Both the position numbers and the translations under genes were made by a program. A model generated the notes under the pieces. It made no database searches, was not told where the DNA came from, and saw only the letters and a program-made list of their open reading frames with translations. Below are positions 22,663 to 58,651 of a stretch of DNA of 64,000 nucleotides, piece by piece (position 1 is the first letter of the stretch; each line of letters starts with the position of its first letter). Source of the DNA: Yersinia hibernica. GTDB taxonomy: Bacteria; Pseudomonadota; Gammaproteobacteria; Enterobacterales; Enterobacteriaceae. The stretch spans positions 1,302,001 through 1,366,000 of the forward strand of contig NZ_CP032487.1 of NCBI RefSeq assembly GCF_004124235.1. The letters are read 5' to 3'.

Positions 22663-23226
22663 AAATAAAATGATGTTTATATTAACTGGGTTAAATCAAC
22701 AATAAATACTATTAAGTTATTTTTATATGGGCCTATTCACTATTTTCTGATTTTAAAATGGGATGTATTGCTATCAGTTAAACTTATTAAGAAGATAAAA
22801 GCGTTGTAATGATAGGGAAAAGCACTGTCAGTATCATAAATTTTATTAATATACTGCTAGAGGTGGCAGCAATGATAACGTAACTCACACACTTTGCTGG
22901 GTAATTCCGGTGGGTAATATTGTGAGAGTGAAGAGGTTGATTTAATCGGCAGAGTCGCCGCACATGACTTGCCGCCGTTACTGATAAATAACAACAGAGC
23001 AATAGGCTTGCGAACCGGCTCGAAAAACGTACATGTAACACTGCAATTGCCGTAATAGCACGGGTTCCCAACTGGGTTTTTTTCACAATTGTGATACATT
23101 GAAAAGACTATCTGAGTCTATGATGAAGTCGCTGACCAGACTTGCTTTGAACCCAAAATTTGGGGCAAAACGACCATAAATATAGACTTGATAATCATAT
23201 TCACTGATGACGTCAAAAGGGTTTTT
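22663..23226. other. pel-pepN intergenic region
   Basis: About 560 bases, AT-rich near pel and more balanced near pepN; it should hold the divergent promoters. Overlapping frames on the minus strand (up to 99 codons) have no ribosome-binding site and unlikely composition. I recognise no element here. Confidence 0.4.
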
Positions 23227-25842
23227 ATGACACAACAGCCGCAAGCTAAATACCGCCACGATTATAAATCGCCGGATTACACTATCACCGATATCGATCT
23301 GGATTTTGCCCTTAATGCACAAAAAACGACGGTAACGGCGGTTAGTAAGGTAAAACGTCAAACAGCAGACGTGACACCGCTGGTTTTGGACGGTGAAGAT
23401 TTAACGCTTATTAGTATCAGCGTTGATGGGCGAGCATGGCCACATTATCATTTACAAAGCAACTCACTGGTTATTGAGCAATTACCTGCGCATTTTACAC
23501 TGACAATCGTCAATGAAATTCACCCTGCAACGAATAGTGCACTTGAGGGCTTATATCTTTCCGGTGATGCACTTTGTACACAATGTGAAGCCGAAGGTTT
23601 CCGTCATATTACTTATTATCTCGACCGCCCTGATGTATTGGCGCGTTTTACAACTCGCATTGTTGCCGATAAGTCACTTTACCCTTATTTACTTTCCAAC
23701 GGGAACCGTGTGGATCAGGGGATTTTGGCTGATGGTCGCCATTGGGTTAAATGGGAAGACCCGTTCCCGAAACCTTGTTATCTATTTGCATTAGTTGCGG
23801 GTGATTTTGATGTCTTACGCGATAAGTTCATTACTCGCTCTGGCCGCGAAGTCGCGCTGGAGCTTTTTGTTGATCGCGGTAATCTGGATCGCGCCGATTG
23901 GGCAATGACCTCATTGAAGAACGCCATGAAATGGGATGAAACCCGTTTTGGCCTGGAATATGACCTCGACATTTATATGATTGTGGCGGTTGATTTCTTC
24001 AATATGGGGGCCATGGAAAATAAAGGGCTGAACGTATTCAACTCAAAATATGTTTTGGCAAAAGCAGAAACGGCGACAGATAAAGATTATCTAAATATTG
24101 AAGCTGTTATTGGCCATGAATATTTCCATAACTGGACAGGTAACCGCGTTACTTGCCGTGATTGGTTCCAATTAAGCCTGAAAGAAGGACTGACGGTATT
24201 CAGAGACCAAGAATTTAGCTCTGATTTAGGTTCGCGTGCGGTTAATCGCATAGAAAACGTCCGGGTGATGCGGGCGGCACAGTTTGCCGAAGATGCCAGC
24301 CCGATGGCTCACGCTATTCGTCCAGATAAAGTCATTGAGATGAATAACTTCTATACCTTGACCGTGTACGAAAAAGGGTCAGAGGTGATCAGGATGATGC
24401 ATACTTTACTGGGGGAGCAGCAATTCCAGGCTGGCATGCAACTCTATTTTGAGCGCCATGATGGCAGTGCCGCGACCTGTGATGACTTTGTACAGGCAAT
24501 GGAAGATGCCTCTAATGTCGATTTGTCTTTATTCCGCCGCTGGTATAGCCAATCTGGCACACCAATACTGACTGTCCGTGACGATTATGATGCTGAAAAG
24601 CAGCAATATCATCTACATGTTAGCCAAAAAACATTACCCACCGCTGACCAGCCGGAAAAACTGCCACTGCATATCCCATTGGATATTGAGCTGTATGACG
24701 GCAAAGGTAATGTAATTGCATTACAGAGAAACGGTTTACCGGTTCACCATGTTCTGAATGTGACAGAGCTTGAGCAGACTTTCACCTTTGATAATGTTGA
24801 GCACCCGCCTATCCCGTCTCTACTACGCGAATTCTCTGCGCCAGTTAAATTGGATTACACCTACAGTGACCAGCAGCTCACTTTCTTGATGCAGCATGCC
24901 CGCAATGAATTCTCGCGTTGGGATGCGGCACAAAGTCTGCTGGCAACATATATCAAACTCAATGTTGCTAAATATCAACAGAAACAGCCCCTGAGTTTAC
25001 CTAGTCATGTGGCCGATGCTTTCCGTGCAATATTGCTTGATGAAAATCTTGATCCTGCCCTGGCAGCACAAATTCTGACATTGCCGTCGGAAAATGAAAT
25101 TGCGGAGCTGTTTGCGACTATTGATCCGCTAGCAATCAGCGCAGTACATGAAGCCATTACCCGTTGTTTGGCAAATGAATTGGCTGATGAATTATTAGCC
25201 GTCTATGTAGCAAATATAACTCCAGAATATCGAATTGAGCACAGCGATATCGCTAAGCGAGCATTACGCAATACATGCCTGAGTTATTTGGCGTTTGGTG
25301 ATGTGGAGTTTGCAAATAAGCTTGTCTCTTCCCAATATCACCAAGCTGATAATATGACGGACTCGTTGGCGGCATTGGCAGCCGCTGTTGCTGCACAACT
25401 CCCTTGCTGTGATGAATTGCTGGCAGCCTTTGATGTGCGCTGGAACCATGATGGTTTGGTGATGGATAAATGGTTTGCTCTGCAAGCAACCAGCCCGGCG
25501 GCAGATGTTTTGGCACAAGTGCGTGGATTGCTGAAACACTCGGCATTTAGCTTGAGTAACCCAAATCGTACCCGTTCGTTGATTGGTAGTTTTGCTTCCG
25601 GTAATCCGGCAGCATTCCATGCTGCGGACGGCAGCGGTTATCAATTCCTAGTAGAAATACTCAGTGATTTGAATACCCGTAACCCACAAGTTGCTGCTCG
25701 CTTGATTGAACCATTAATTCGTTTGAAGCGATATGATTCAGGGCGTCAGGCTTTGATGCGGCAGGCTCTGGAGCAATTGAAAACATTGGATAATTTATCT
25801 GGTGACTTGTACGAGAAGATAACCAAAGCATTAGCGGCCTAA
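23227..25842 (+). CDS. pepN: aminopeptidase N
   Basis: Zn-dependent M1 aminopeptidase, the main cytosolic aminopeptidase of enterobacteria. The start at 23227 (MTQQPQAKYRHDYKSP, with AAGGG 5 bases upstream) gives 871 residues, against 870 in E. coli. The exopeptidase motif GAMEN is at 261-265 and the zinc motif HEYFH at 297-301 with Glu320 in LKEGLTVF. The C-terminal helical domain is complete. In E. coli the ssu operon separates pepN from pyrD; here pyrD follows directly. Confidence 0.97.
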   Translation: MTQQPQAKYRHDYKSPDYTITDIDLDFALNAQKTTVTAVSKVKRQTADVTPLVLDGEDLTLISISVDGRAWPHYHLQSNSLVIEQLPAHFTLTIVNEIHPATNSALEGLYLSGDALCTQCEAEGFRHITYYLDRPDVLARFTTRIVADKSLYPYLLSNGNRVDQGILADGRHWVKWEDPFPKPCYLFALVAGDFDVLRDKFITRSGREVALELFVDRGNLDRADWAMTSLKNAMKWDETRFGLEYDLDIYMIVAVDFFNMGAMENKGLNVFNSKYVLAKAETATDKDYLNIEAVIGHEYFHNWTGNRVTCRDWFQLSLKEGLTVFRDQEFSSDLGSRAVNRIENVRVMRAAQFAEDASPMAHAIRPDKVIEMNNFYTLTVYEKGSEVIRMMHTLLGEQQFQAGMQLYFERHDGSAATCDDFVQAMEDASNVDLSLFRRWYSQSGTPILTVRDDYDAEKQQYHLHVSQKTLPTADQPEKLPLHIPLDIELYDGKGNVIALQRNGLPVHHVLNVTELEQTFTFDNVEHPPIPSLLREFSAPVKLDYTYSDQQLTFLMQHARNEFSRWDAAQSLLATYIKLNVAKYQQKQPLSLPSHVADAFRAILLDENLDPALAAQILTLPSENEIAELFATIDPLAISAVHEAITRCLANELADELLAVYVANITPEYRIEHSDIAKRALRNTCLSYLAFGDVEFANKLVSSQYHQADNMTDSLAALAAAVAAQLPCCDELLAAFDVRWNHDGLVMDKWFALQATSPAADVLAQVRGLLKHSAFSLSNPNRTRSLIGSFASGNPAAFHAADGSGYQFLVEILSDLNTRNPQVAARLIEPLIRLKRYDSGRQALMRQALEQLKTLDNLSGDLYEKITKALAA

Positions 25843-56514: not shown

Positions 56515-56586
56515 AAAAAAAACCCTTACCAATCTCATTTGGTAAGGGATGCCAAATCGGCCAACACCAGGGAAACATTATAACCG
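56515..56586 (-). ncRNA. putative FNR-controlled small RNA
   Basis: On the minus strand a hairpin CCCTTACCAA, ATGAGA loop, TTGGTAAGGG is followed by eight T: a strong intrinsic terminator with no coding gene before it. About 40 bases ahead of the transcript is a promoter with -10 TATGAT (56594-56599) and an FNR-like palindrome centred 41.5 bases from the inferred start at about 56586. The RNA would be about 72 nt, with single-stranded CCCTGGTGTTGGC ahead of the terminator. No ribosome-binding site or closed frame lies in it. A second -10 (TATAAT, 56576-56581) could give a shorter form. I do not recognise it as a known RNA. Confidence 0.5.
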
Positions 56587-56620
56587 TTTATTTATCATAC
56601 GATTAATTTAGGTTACGGAC

Positions 56621-56634
56621 ATGACTTAAGTCAA
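56621..56634 (-). promoter_or_regulatory. FNR-like site for the putative small RNA
   Basis: Minus-strand TTGACTTAAGTCAT against consensus TTGATNNNNATCAA: 7 of 10 defined bases match, with the symmetry of the arms kept. Its centre is 41.5 bp from the inferred start, the class II activator position. Confidence 0.5.
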
Positions 56635-57247
56635 GTTTATCAAAATTACATTAATATGTTTAATGTTTATATGTCCTGGAAGGATATTTTTTTTCACTTT
56701 TAGCACAATTAGTGCTCAAACAAGCCCTGCCATGGGATTATTGGCATTGAAGGTAACAACAAAGTAGTGGGATATGCTGATAAAATCGTCAGGGTTGGCG
56801 GGTGCAGCTTATTCAGTCAATAAGGACGAGCAGCAAAAGTATTCATTGGATGGGGTCTATAGGATCGGATTTTGTGGCCATCTGAATGTAAAGACATCCA
56901 GATGGCAGGGTAAAACGAGTTCGTGGTAAATGAAGAGAGCCCTGGTGTTGGCGGAAATATATTCTTTTCAGACTAACTTTCTTAACGGCAGTACGCTAAG
57001 ATACTAGTTCTATTATATTTAAAGCTAATCCTGCGAAGCAAAAACAGTTTAATTAACATGGGGGTATAATAATAGCTAGCCTTAGGTACAGTTTTCAAAA
57101 CTATACTTTAGTACAGGTTTGTTCTCATAAGGTCAGTGCATTCTATATTAGGAATATCTGCATGGGTGCTTTATACCGAATTTCTTATTGAAAACAATGT
57201 GATAAAATTGTATTGTTACATTATACATAGTGTGAAATTGGTTTATT
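56635..57247. other. AT-rich region upstream of luxR
   Basis: About 610 bases with no convincing gene. It contains a hairpin GCCATCTG...CAGATGGC (56877-56906), a 13-base segment at 56940-56952 that repeats in reverse the core of the putative small RNA, a TATAAT at 57065-57070 and a 13-bp palindrome AGTTTTCAAAACT at 57090-57102. The last two could belong to a long luxR leader or promoter. Confidence 0.4.
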
Positions 57248-57982
57248 ATGATAATTGATTATTTTGATAATGAAAGTATTAATGAAGATATAAAGAATTA
57301 TATTCAACGTAGAATAAAATCCTATGGTGACCTTCGTTATTCTTATTTAGTGATGAATAAGAAAACTCCATTGCATCCGACTATTATCTCTAACTATCCT
57401 CAGGGTTGGGTGAAAAAATATAAGAAGAACAGTTATCATCTTATTGATCCTGTCATTTTGACGGCAAAAGATAAAGTTGCGCCCTTTGCATGGGACGATA
57501 ATTCTGTTATTAATAAGAAATCAACAGACTCCGCAGTATTTAAGTTGGCGCGAGAATATAACATTGTTAATGGCTACACTTTCGTGTTGCACGATAATAG
57601 CTATAATATGGCAACCCTAAACATTTCCAATGGAAGTGATGATAGTATCTCTTTTGATGAGAGCATTGAAATCAATAAAGAAAAAATTCAAATGCTACTT
57701 ATCCTCACCCACGAGAAGATGTTAGGTCTTTACCAGCGTAATAGCGATAAAAATGAAAAGCGGAATCTGAAAATAGAGAGAGATATATTCTCCCCACGGG
57801 AAAACGAAATTTTATACTGGGCCAGTATGGGTAAAACGTATGCTGAAATTTCAATTATATTGGGGATAAAAAGAAGTACAGTTAAATTCCATATTGGCAA
57901 TGTTGTGAGGAAGTTAGGTGTTTTAAATGCCAAGCACGCAATAAGGCTTGGCATTGAATTGAAGTTAATTAAGCCTATTTAA
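57248..57982 (+). CDS. yenR: LuxR-type quorum-sensing regulator (YenR/YpsR group)
   Basis: Acyl-homoserine-lactone-responsive regulator. Length is 244 residues. The N-terminal ligand domain (about 1-165) keeps the residues that contact AHL in the family: Trp54, Tyr58, Asp67, Pro68 and Trp82. The C-terminal LuxR HTH (about 180-240) reads [17 protein letters not shown], then [20 protein letters not shown]. It is convergent with luxI and overlaps it by 8 bases. Convergent pairs of this EsaR/YenR group usually bind DNA without ligand and release with it; that is family knowledge, not visible here. Base composition is AT-rich compared with the flanking core genes. Confidence 0.92.
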
Positions 57983-58619
57983 TGATACCTGGCACAATCA
58001 TTGGCCAAGTTTCGAGGGTGCCTAGCTCAATCTGATGTATTTTCATGATTTTATTTATAAGTTTTTTCTGGCTGTCTGTATCAACGCCCAAATGCAAAAG
58101 ATAAATAACTTCATTTTTCTCTGATTCACCTTGGTTCAATACTGTAATACTCCATCCAGAACGTTTCAGTAGTGTAAACATCCCTCTGCTTACAACGGTC
58201 AGAATTCCTTTGTGCCCACGATATATGGCGTAATTTACCATTGCTAGAAATAGTATCGTACTCAGAGAACTATTATTACCTACCATATCTCTTGCTAATG
58301 TTTTCTCAACAAAAAATCGGCTGGACTCAATAAAACCGTCAATAGGCAAATCTACATCAGAGAAGTAAGGAGCAAATGGCCCAGTAATCATGGTTGGATA
58401 TTTCATATCAATAAAGCGAACACTGCAAACAATTGTGTCGTCTATTGTTCCCAATATATAATTGGTATTTTCATCATCATATTGGTCACTTTCCTTGCCA
58501 TCGATACAGGTCACTTTCCAATCTAAGCGATCTTTAAACGTTATTTTTCTAAGTGAGAAGATCTCGTCTAACTTCCTTTCAGGCATATTATTAAAATTTA
58601 CGTTAAAGAGTTTTAACAT
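57975..58619 (-). CDS. yenI: N-acylhomoserine lactone synthase (YenI group)
   Basis: LuxI-type enzyme making AHL from S-adenosylmethionine and acyl-ACP. Starting at 58619 ([16 protein letters not shown]) gives 214 residues; an in-frame ATG 12 bases upstream is possible. All invariant residues are found: Arg24, Phe28, Trp34, Glu43, Asp45, Asp48, Arg68, Glu98 and Arg101. The start of the plus-strand regulator's end overlaps its 3' end by 8 bases, so read-through from either side is antisense to the other. The acyl chain made cannot be told from the sequence. Confidence 0.94.
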
Positions 58620-58651
58620 AATAAAAACCAAAGTTATTTAATGAAAACAAC

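Follow-up and report, generated by a model that had tools for sequence, protein, structure and literature searches.

The quorum-sensing locus and an adjacent small RNA gene

The window, i.e. the whole 64,000-nucleotide stretch of Yersinia hibernica DNA analysed here, possesses an AHL-type quorum-sensing locus with yenR, yenI and the sRNA gene YenS (Table 1). On the minus strand of the same locus, the sequence gives good support to a further, unannotated sRNA gene that has an activator-type promoter of its own. This sRNA gene is flanked by yenR/yenI and tRNA-Ser, and arcB is not adjacent. The placement between tRNA-Ser and luxR given in a preliminary description holds for the window; across the 21 matching Yersinia loci, the tRNA was found within 1.5 kb in only 2. 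In Rfam scans the YenS model RF02374 matches the YenS gene and nothing over the new sRNA, and FnrS, an sRNA raised under anaerobiosis in Y. intermedia (PMC3792023), has no match in the window. Elsewhere in the window a PepN 5' UTR thermometer match (115 bits) is present at 23108-23256.

Table 1. Coordinates of the features at the quorum-sensing locus, in window positions
Feature	Position	Strand	Basis
Predicted sRNA gene, ~73 nt	56515..56587	-	Start inferred 7 nt past the -10; 101.6 bits to model R1, whose training set included this sequence among others
Intrinsic terminator CCCTTACCAAATGAGATTGGTAAGGG, 10-bp stem and eight T	Stem-loop 56523..56548, T-run 56522-56515	-	Terminator scan; compensatory changes among 25 copies
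GCC-N5-GGC mini-hairpin	56551..56561	-	Alignment of 25 copies
Seed TTTCCCTGGTGTTGGC, same as the ArcZ seed	56560..56575	-	Sequence, Rfam alignment
-10 element TATGAT	56594..56599	-	Exact in 18/21 Yersinia copies
CRP/FNR-type palindrome TTGACTTAAGTCAT, centre about -41	56621..56634	-	Exact in 19/21 copies; position
YenS sRNA gene, RF02374	56872..57039	-	Rfam 150.3 bits, gathering score 80
Anti-seed GCCAACACCAGGG within YenS	56940..56952	-	Perfect 13-nt complement of the seed
Two lux-box-like 20-mers, AGCTAGCCTTAGGTACAGTT and AACTATACTTTAGTACAGGT	57074..57118		Between YenS and yenR; "lux box" by resemblance
yenR, AHL-type LuxR regulator	57248..57982	+	PF03472, PF00196; name from the YenS/yenI setting
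yenI, autoinducer synthase	57975..58631	-	PF00765

The predicted RNA is about 73 nt long, close to the 72 nt proposed earlier, and carries the unpaired segment CCCTGGTGTTGGC at 56572-56560. Its strong minus-strand terminator is confirmed at the stem length and T-run first described. The same scan yields two terminator-like sites in 1.6 kb against a mean of 1.1 in shuffled sequence, so the terminator by itself carries little weight; the gene as a whole stands above chance because it is conserved across Yersinia. Among 25 aligned copies the terminator stem displays both-sided changes in nine cells, matched by none of 500 shuffles, and in three pairs, matched by 5 of 500. The mini-hairpin has no support from covariation, since its pairs are invariant in the same alignment.

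No evident coding gene precedes the terminator, as had been stated. A 41-codon ORF begins within the RNA, with its ATG directly 5' of TTTCCC, and could be taken for a small peptide gene; however, it reads on past the terminator, two copies (L018, L020) have an extra T after the ATG, the ATG is absent in three (L016, L021, L022), and other copies differ by indels of 1-2 nt. The coding reading is disfavoured because the frame is not kept among copies, and we regard it as extremely improbable.

Promoter

Both promoter elements of the preliminary description, TATGAT as -10 and a palindrome centred at the class II position of 41.5 bp, are present. The palindrome centre lies 28 bp ahead of the -10, at -40.5 or -41.5 according to which start is assumed (inferred at ~56587). 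The FNR half-site consensus is TTGAT-N4-ATCAA, and the window box, TTGAC-N4-GTCAT, agrees with it in 7 of 10 positions. Boxes of sister copies occupy the same position and range from FNR-like (TTGACTTAAATCAT) through CRP-like (CGTGACATGAATCACA), their halves from TTGA (FNR-like) to GTGA (CRP-like). The box centre is located 51-53 bp 5' of the seed in the 11 CRP/FNR-type copies displayed, and a -10 is recognised 27-28 bp past it in nine of these 11, the promoters otherwise differing. For L021 and L036 a box at such spacing is not among their best matches. Another promoter type among copies has TTGACGGGAACGTTCCC or a near variant.

The sequence supports an activator of the CRP/FNR family near the class II position, and control of the predicted sRNA by FNR is plausible. 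A second conserved block, ATATAAACATTAAACATATTAATGTAA, lies 5' of the palindrome (56646-56672), is well kept in the 21 genomes treated below and contains ACATTAA-N5-TTAATGT; it is possibly an extra activator site or an UP element.

Conservation in Yersinia

Of 25 Yersinia genomes, 21 match the 126 bp of the unit fully or bar one base. Mean column identity over these 21 loci is 0.99 for the palindrome, 0.968 for the -10, 0.996 for the seed core and 0.986 for the terminator, against 0.878 for the spacer between box and -10, 0.735 upstream and 0.626 downstream. The conservation that had been named as a check on the gene is therefore found: -10, box and unpaired segment are kept and the flanks drift. 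The converse, a terminator kept after loss of the promoter, is not the pattern among the 21 loci (Table 1), one of which (L021) has both box and -10 decayed. Outside the 21, three genomes (G009, G016, G021) possess shorter matches with other promoters, and in G022 no copy of the sRNA was found. The sRNA is retained in four genomes (G012, G017, G019, G023) in which YenS is undetected and yenR was not found within the stretch examined. In Y. aldovae (L019, L063), where the sRNA is retained, yenR matches occur in separate tblastn pieces and the gene looks interrupted.

YenS is encoded some 285 bp upstream in the same orientation, and its 3' hairpin lacks a T-run. This would also suit a stem-loop with no RNA of its own that merely stops transcripts reading through from YenS or from elsewhere upstream. 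Against this, the conservation of box and -10 is close to that of the terminator, genomes with no YenS match still retain the unit, and copies elsewhere have other promoters, which makes such a stem-loop very unlikely.

A multi-copy family with the ArcZ seed

The seed of the window sRNA is identical to the 16-nt seed of ArcZ, UUUCCCUGGUGUUGGC. According to the available text of PMC11331407, ArcZ acts via this seed in 330 of 335 interactions, can pair with and destroy another sRNA, CyaR, and is repressed at low oxygen. In an Rfam scan at relaxed threshold, the ArcZ model RF00081 aligns its seed with the unpaired segment of the window sRNA at only 20.8 bits, below the cut-off of 66, and the true ArcZ of the genome is located elsewhere (at 4196253, 70.9 bits). 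The earlier statement that the RNA is not a well-known one is thus correct for the gene itself and incorrect for its targeting part. Both RNAs share the 16-nt seed followed by a 3' terminator, whereas the window sRNA lacks the arcB neighbour and the ArcZ 5' domain, has another 3' part (GCC-N3-5-GGC and a different terminator), is a short predicted transcript with the seed near its 5' end and occurs in several copies.

Three copies are present in the Y. hibernica genome. The two others, each with seed and terminator, score 86.9 and 69.8 bits; model R1, for whose construction these copies were used, the two included, gives them 91.8 and 78.2 bits. They are each located near a DUF1120 protein gene (L032:3004, L033:2969) and have other promoters (an FNR-like box; TTGACGGGAACGTTCCC); the DUF1120 neighbours yielded no mechanism. 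The 25 aligned Yersinia copies possess a near-fixed UUUCCCUGGUGUUGGCC-N3-5-UGGC under varying promoters. The family is a multi-copy one of seed, GCC-N-GGC hairpin and terminator, and the window sRNA has all three parts, besides an adjacent AHL-type luxR and an anti-seed partner (YenS) at its locus. For eight luxR-linked family loci, Rfam reports no family match at gathering score.

An RNWUU word, the RNase E consensus in the available text of PMC11331407, stands just 5' of the seed in 45 of 53 non-Yersinia copies, a count that includes ArcZ matches and has no null. Cleavage of ArcZ by RNase E yields a form of 55-60 nt. The window copy reads AATGTTTCC ahead of its seed, without RNWUU. A diverged copy, TTCCTTGGTGTTGGC, is found divergently upstream of a second luxR (L037:2527 in G014; L098:2524, Y. 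massiliensis). In the genome holding the Y. similis YenS sequence, which has no family copy, ArcZ is shortened past the seed (L142:1523).

YenS carries the complement of the seed

YenS contains a perfect 13-nt complement of the seed about 370 bp away from it, and with this anti-seed it is a predicted partner of the seed RNA rather than a candidate for it. Outside the family genes, the 13-mer GCCAACACCAGGG occurs in the whole genome only in YenS. The predicted duplex of seed and YenS has -27.8 kcal/mol, whereas 300 shuffled seeds give -11.9 +/- 2.3 and -19.8 at best.

The 14-nt pattern, two mismatches allowed, is present at 63 places in the genome, the three perfect ones being the family genes, and the reversed pattern, whose composition makes it less than a strict null, at 13. 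Twenty of the 63 near-matches were compared with the whole 73-nt RNA, gene names being assigned by eye. Two of them hold longer matches than YenS, both in a shifted register: a perfect 15-nt complement, CAACACCAGGGAAAC, within an rbsD-like gene on its coding strand (L202:1503-1517; G000:C1:12382), and a perfect 14-nt complement antisense to a helicase-like gene. Both are possible targets. YenS as the sole long complement in the genome is hence ruled out, and length alone does not single it out; what does is its position, some 370 bp from the seed within an established regulatory RNA.

YenS sites were read in 17 of 19 matches (G004 and the second match of G014 were left out). Twelve unbroken pairs, G.U included, are kept in 14 of the 17, in the variants CCAACACCAGGG (seven loci), CCAATACCAGGG (six) and CCAACGCCAGGG (one), the latter two kinds retaining a G.U pair; two sites break the pairing and one is shortened. 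In the YenS of G010 (L016, L175) the first site is followed some 24 nt on by another CCAACACCAGG site, resembling a two-site sponge, and that of G003 (L180) shows the beginning of a second CCAACACCAGG site.

The sRNA and YenS adjoin in 17 of 25 genomes, counting the weak YenS of G004. They are nevertheless separable, since the sRNA is kept without YenS in four genomes and no copy accompanies YenS and ArcZ in G022, the genome with the Y. similis YenS sequence: neither requires the other. These genomes also bear on the alternative that YenS binds true ArcZ only, the window sRNA being a redundant copy that seldom meets it. Y. similis, with YenS and ArcZ and without the copy, speaks for this, as does the predicted pairing of YenS, 14 bp with ArcZ versus 13 with the window sRNA. 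The frequent adjoining of sRNA and YenS speaks against it, together with the Pantoea-type locus described below, where seed and anti-seed are neighbours too, and we consider it improbable.

Pairing of the seed with the leaders of yenR and yenI is no better than chance (37 and 178 of 200 shuffles, respectively, are as good), and that with the flhD leader is weak and no more than suggestive, being equalled by 4 of 300 shuffles.

According to the available text of PMC3493969, transcription of YenS proceeds away from yenR, with YenR as its activator when signal is low. YenS also represses yenI (PMC3493969, PMC4773443) and promotes swarming by a route apart from yenI (PMC4773443).

Linkage to luxR outside Yersinia

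Model R1 was run on 295 genomes of the bacterial family and matches 146 of them at E up to 0.001. Many lower-scoring matches are probably ArcZ; eight were verified as such at 41-48 bits. The best 56 non-Yersinia matches by E-value, inspected over 1.5-2 kb per side, comprise eight ArcZ genes beside arcB and 48 other copies. An AHL-type luxR is located within ~2 kb of 32 of these 48 best non-ArcZ matches, 24 times together with LuxI, a count drawn from score-ranked matches; less than one in 48 would be expected by chance, as a rough estimate that assumes a few such luxR genes per 5 Mb. The 32 span 17 genera, several coming from sister species or the same genome. The remaining 16 are not linked to luxR, and one of them (L229) is without a recognisable seed. 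In the opposite direction, 36 of 80 loci selected by their luxR carry a copy according to a simple script, ten of them from Yersinia; three of the 36 (L078, L102, L111) are absent from the locus listing.

In the commonest layout, seen in about half of the 32, the sRNA lies upstream of luxR on the same strand. The distance from seed to luxR start is 175-258 bp in the 25 loci measured. In 15 of 26 loci, a set with some duplicates and no null, a lux-box-like AGTTAGACTTAGGTATAG with up to three mismatches occurs between copy and luxR; a word like it also stands at position 57074 of the window, in the interval from YenS to yenR. No common lux box was seen upstream of the luxR-linked copies; the shared box is the one between copy and luxR. 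G.U-tolerant anti-seed runs outside the copies number 262 at 55 luxR loci. There is no clear anti-seed site at the non-Yersinia luxR loci, because 2 of 20 shuffled seeds reach this level and the runs have no consistent place.

The recurrence of the linkage bears on the view of the preliminary description, an FNR-dependent sRNA with oxygen targets of its own in an accidental quorum neighbourhood. In keeping with that view are the conserved box near the class II position with its -10 and the retention of the gene where yenR and YenS are not found nearby. Yet the seed is that of ArcZ and not a private one, luxR linkage recurs in 17 genera, the adjacent YenS contains an exact complement, and sister boxes grade into the CRP consensus. 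An independent FNR-dependent RNA is unlikely on this evidence.

Pantoea RNAs and other known systems

Two RNAs of Pantoea ananatis, pPAR237 and pPAR238, are Hfq-dependent, located beside eanIR and partly antisense to each other, and both abound at low density and become scarce at high density, as described in the available text of PMC6749038, which does not link them to ArcZ. One pPAR primer contains the seed word and is found exactly in one genome of 392. All eight pPAR237/238 primers map to one AHL luxR locus, six exactly and two with one mismatch, this locus having been chosen by one of the eight. By its own primers pPAR238 spans the anti-seed. The pPAR237 primers lie on the luxR strand upstream of luxR, with seed and terminator directly past them, and from its reported 191 nt and terminator pPAR237 would include both. 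Seed and anti-seed are neighbours here as in Yersinia, the difference being that the Pantoea partners are antisense to each other, whereas YenS has a gene to itself. For an anti-seed outside Yersinia the evidence is antisense transcription, documented only for P. ananatis.

In Pantoea stewartii, PesaS and PesaR run in opposite directions, and EsaR without its signal activates PesaS (available text of PMC13365800); EsaS may for this reason be an antisense RNA of the same kind. Its resemblance to pPAR238 is deduced from promoter direction and control rather than from the EsaS sequence.

Several quorum-linked sRNAs with one common core are also known as the Qrr RNAs of Vibrio. The likeness lies in this arrangement; the signalling system is a different one, and sequences were compared by Rfam scan only.

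Copies on phage-like DNA and plasmids

A phage-borne origin as the main explanation was rejected: a 60-nt piece of the window RNA is unmatched in 50,697 phage records. The same piece has no blastn match in E. coli genomes, a search that excludes close relatives only, since the ArcZ of E. coli itself was also unreported. The core word is present on nine IMG/VR contigs, five of which (L165-L169) have a terminator after it, four sharing one copy. The copy of the 3.7-Mb Yersinia genome G021 (L023) recurs on L165-L168, identical over the stretch displayed; prophage-like DNA may thus be a vehicle for some copies. Five plasmids match weakly (E 0.03-0.1), and two of these apparently recur as L247 and L251. 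Clear copies beside luxR occur on these putative plasmids of Duffyella gerundensis (L247) and Candidatus Erwinia impunctatus (L251), and the family unit would accordingly be plasmid-borne as well.

Interpretation

Gene anatomy, conservation, seed identity, complementarity and luxR linkage, as read from the sequence, point to a quorum-locus mimic of ArcZ with an anti-seed partner, YenS here and an antisense RNA in Pantoea, that adjusts the ArcZ regulon. We give this reading a probability of roughly two in three. The ~73-nt RNA would be transcribed in Yersinia from its own promoter, present the ArcZ seed near its 5' end, close with the strong terminator and, together with Hfq, regulate targets of the ArcZ type. 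It would be turned on by an activator of the CRP/FNR type, bound at about -41, when true ArcZ, which is repressed at low oxygen, is scarce. YenS, made at low autoinducer, would oppose it, its anti-seed titrating or co-degrading the window RNA and ArcZ, and removal of ArcZ-type seeds at low density would free flhDC. In Y. ruckeri, flhDC and swimming both rise when arcZ is deleted, according to the available text of PMC12112432; a gain of motility on loss of arcZ and the promotion of swarming by YenS are what would be expected of an anti-seed RNA. YenS could also act on ArcZ alone. Against the mimic reading, pPAR237 and pPAR238 both drop at high density, which is not simple opposition.

A wider reading is a serious though still tentative possibility. 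LuxR-type quorum loci of Enterobacterales would carry an sRNA/anti-sRNA switch, made up of a seed RNA that copies ArcZ together with an anti-seed RNA that LuxR activates in the absence of signal (YenS, or the pPAR238/EsaS type). The ArcZ regulon would thereby be reset by cell density and, in Yersinia, by oxygen or carbon state as well; the swarming effect of YenS would then be the titration of ArcZ-type seeds off flhDC.

Neither ArcZ paralogues nor a link of YenS or of pPAR237/238 to ArcZ was found in the available text of open-licence PMC literature (supplements excluded). The available text of PMC10168573 uses "ArcZ2" to name an allele. The Yersinia "mutated arcZ alleles" of PMC11331407 were obtained by BLASTN, according to its available text, and could include paralogues from the seed family; searches for arcZ alleles in Yersinia could generally pick up such paralogues.

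If the wider reading is true, the targeting sequence of a core sRNA has been copied under new promoters at signalling loci, together with an anti-seed RNA controlled by LuxR. This would connect to ArcZ both the motility effect of YenS, which has no known second target, and the pPAR237/238 pair beside eanIR.
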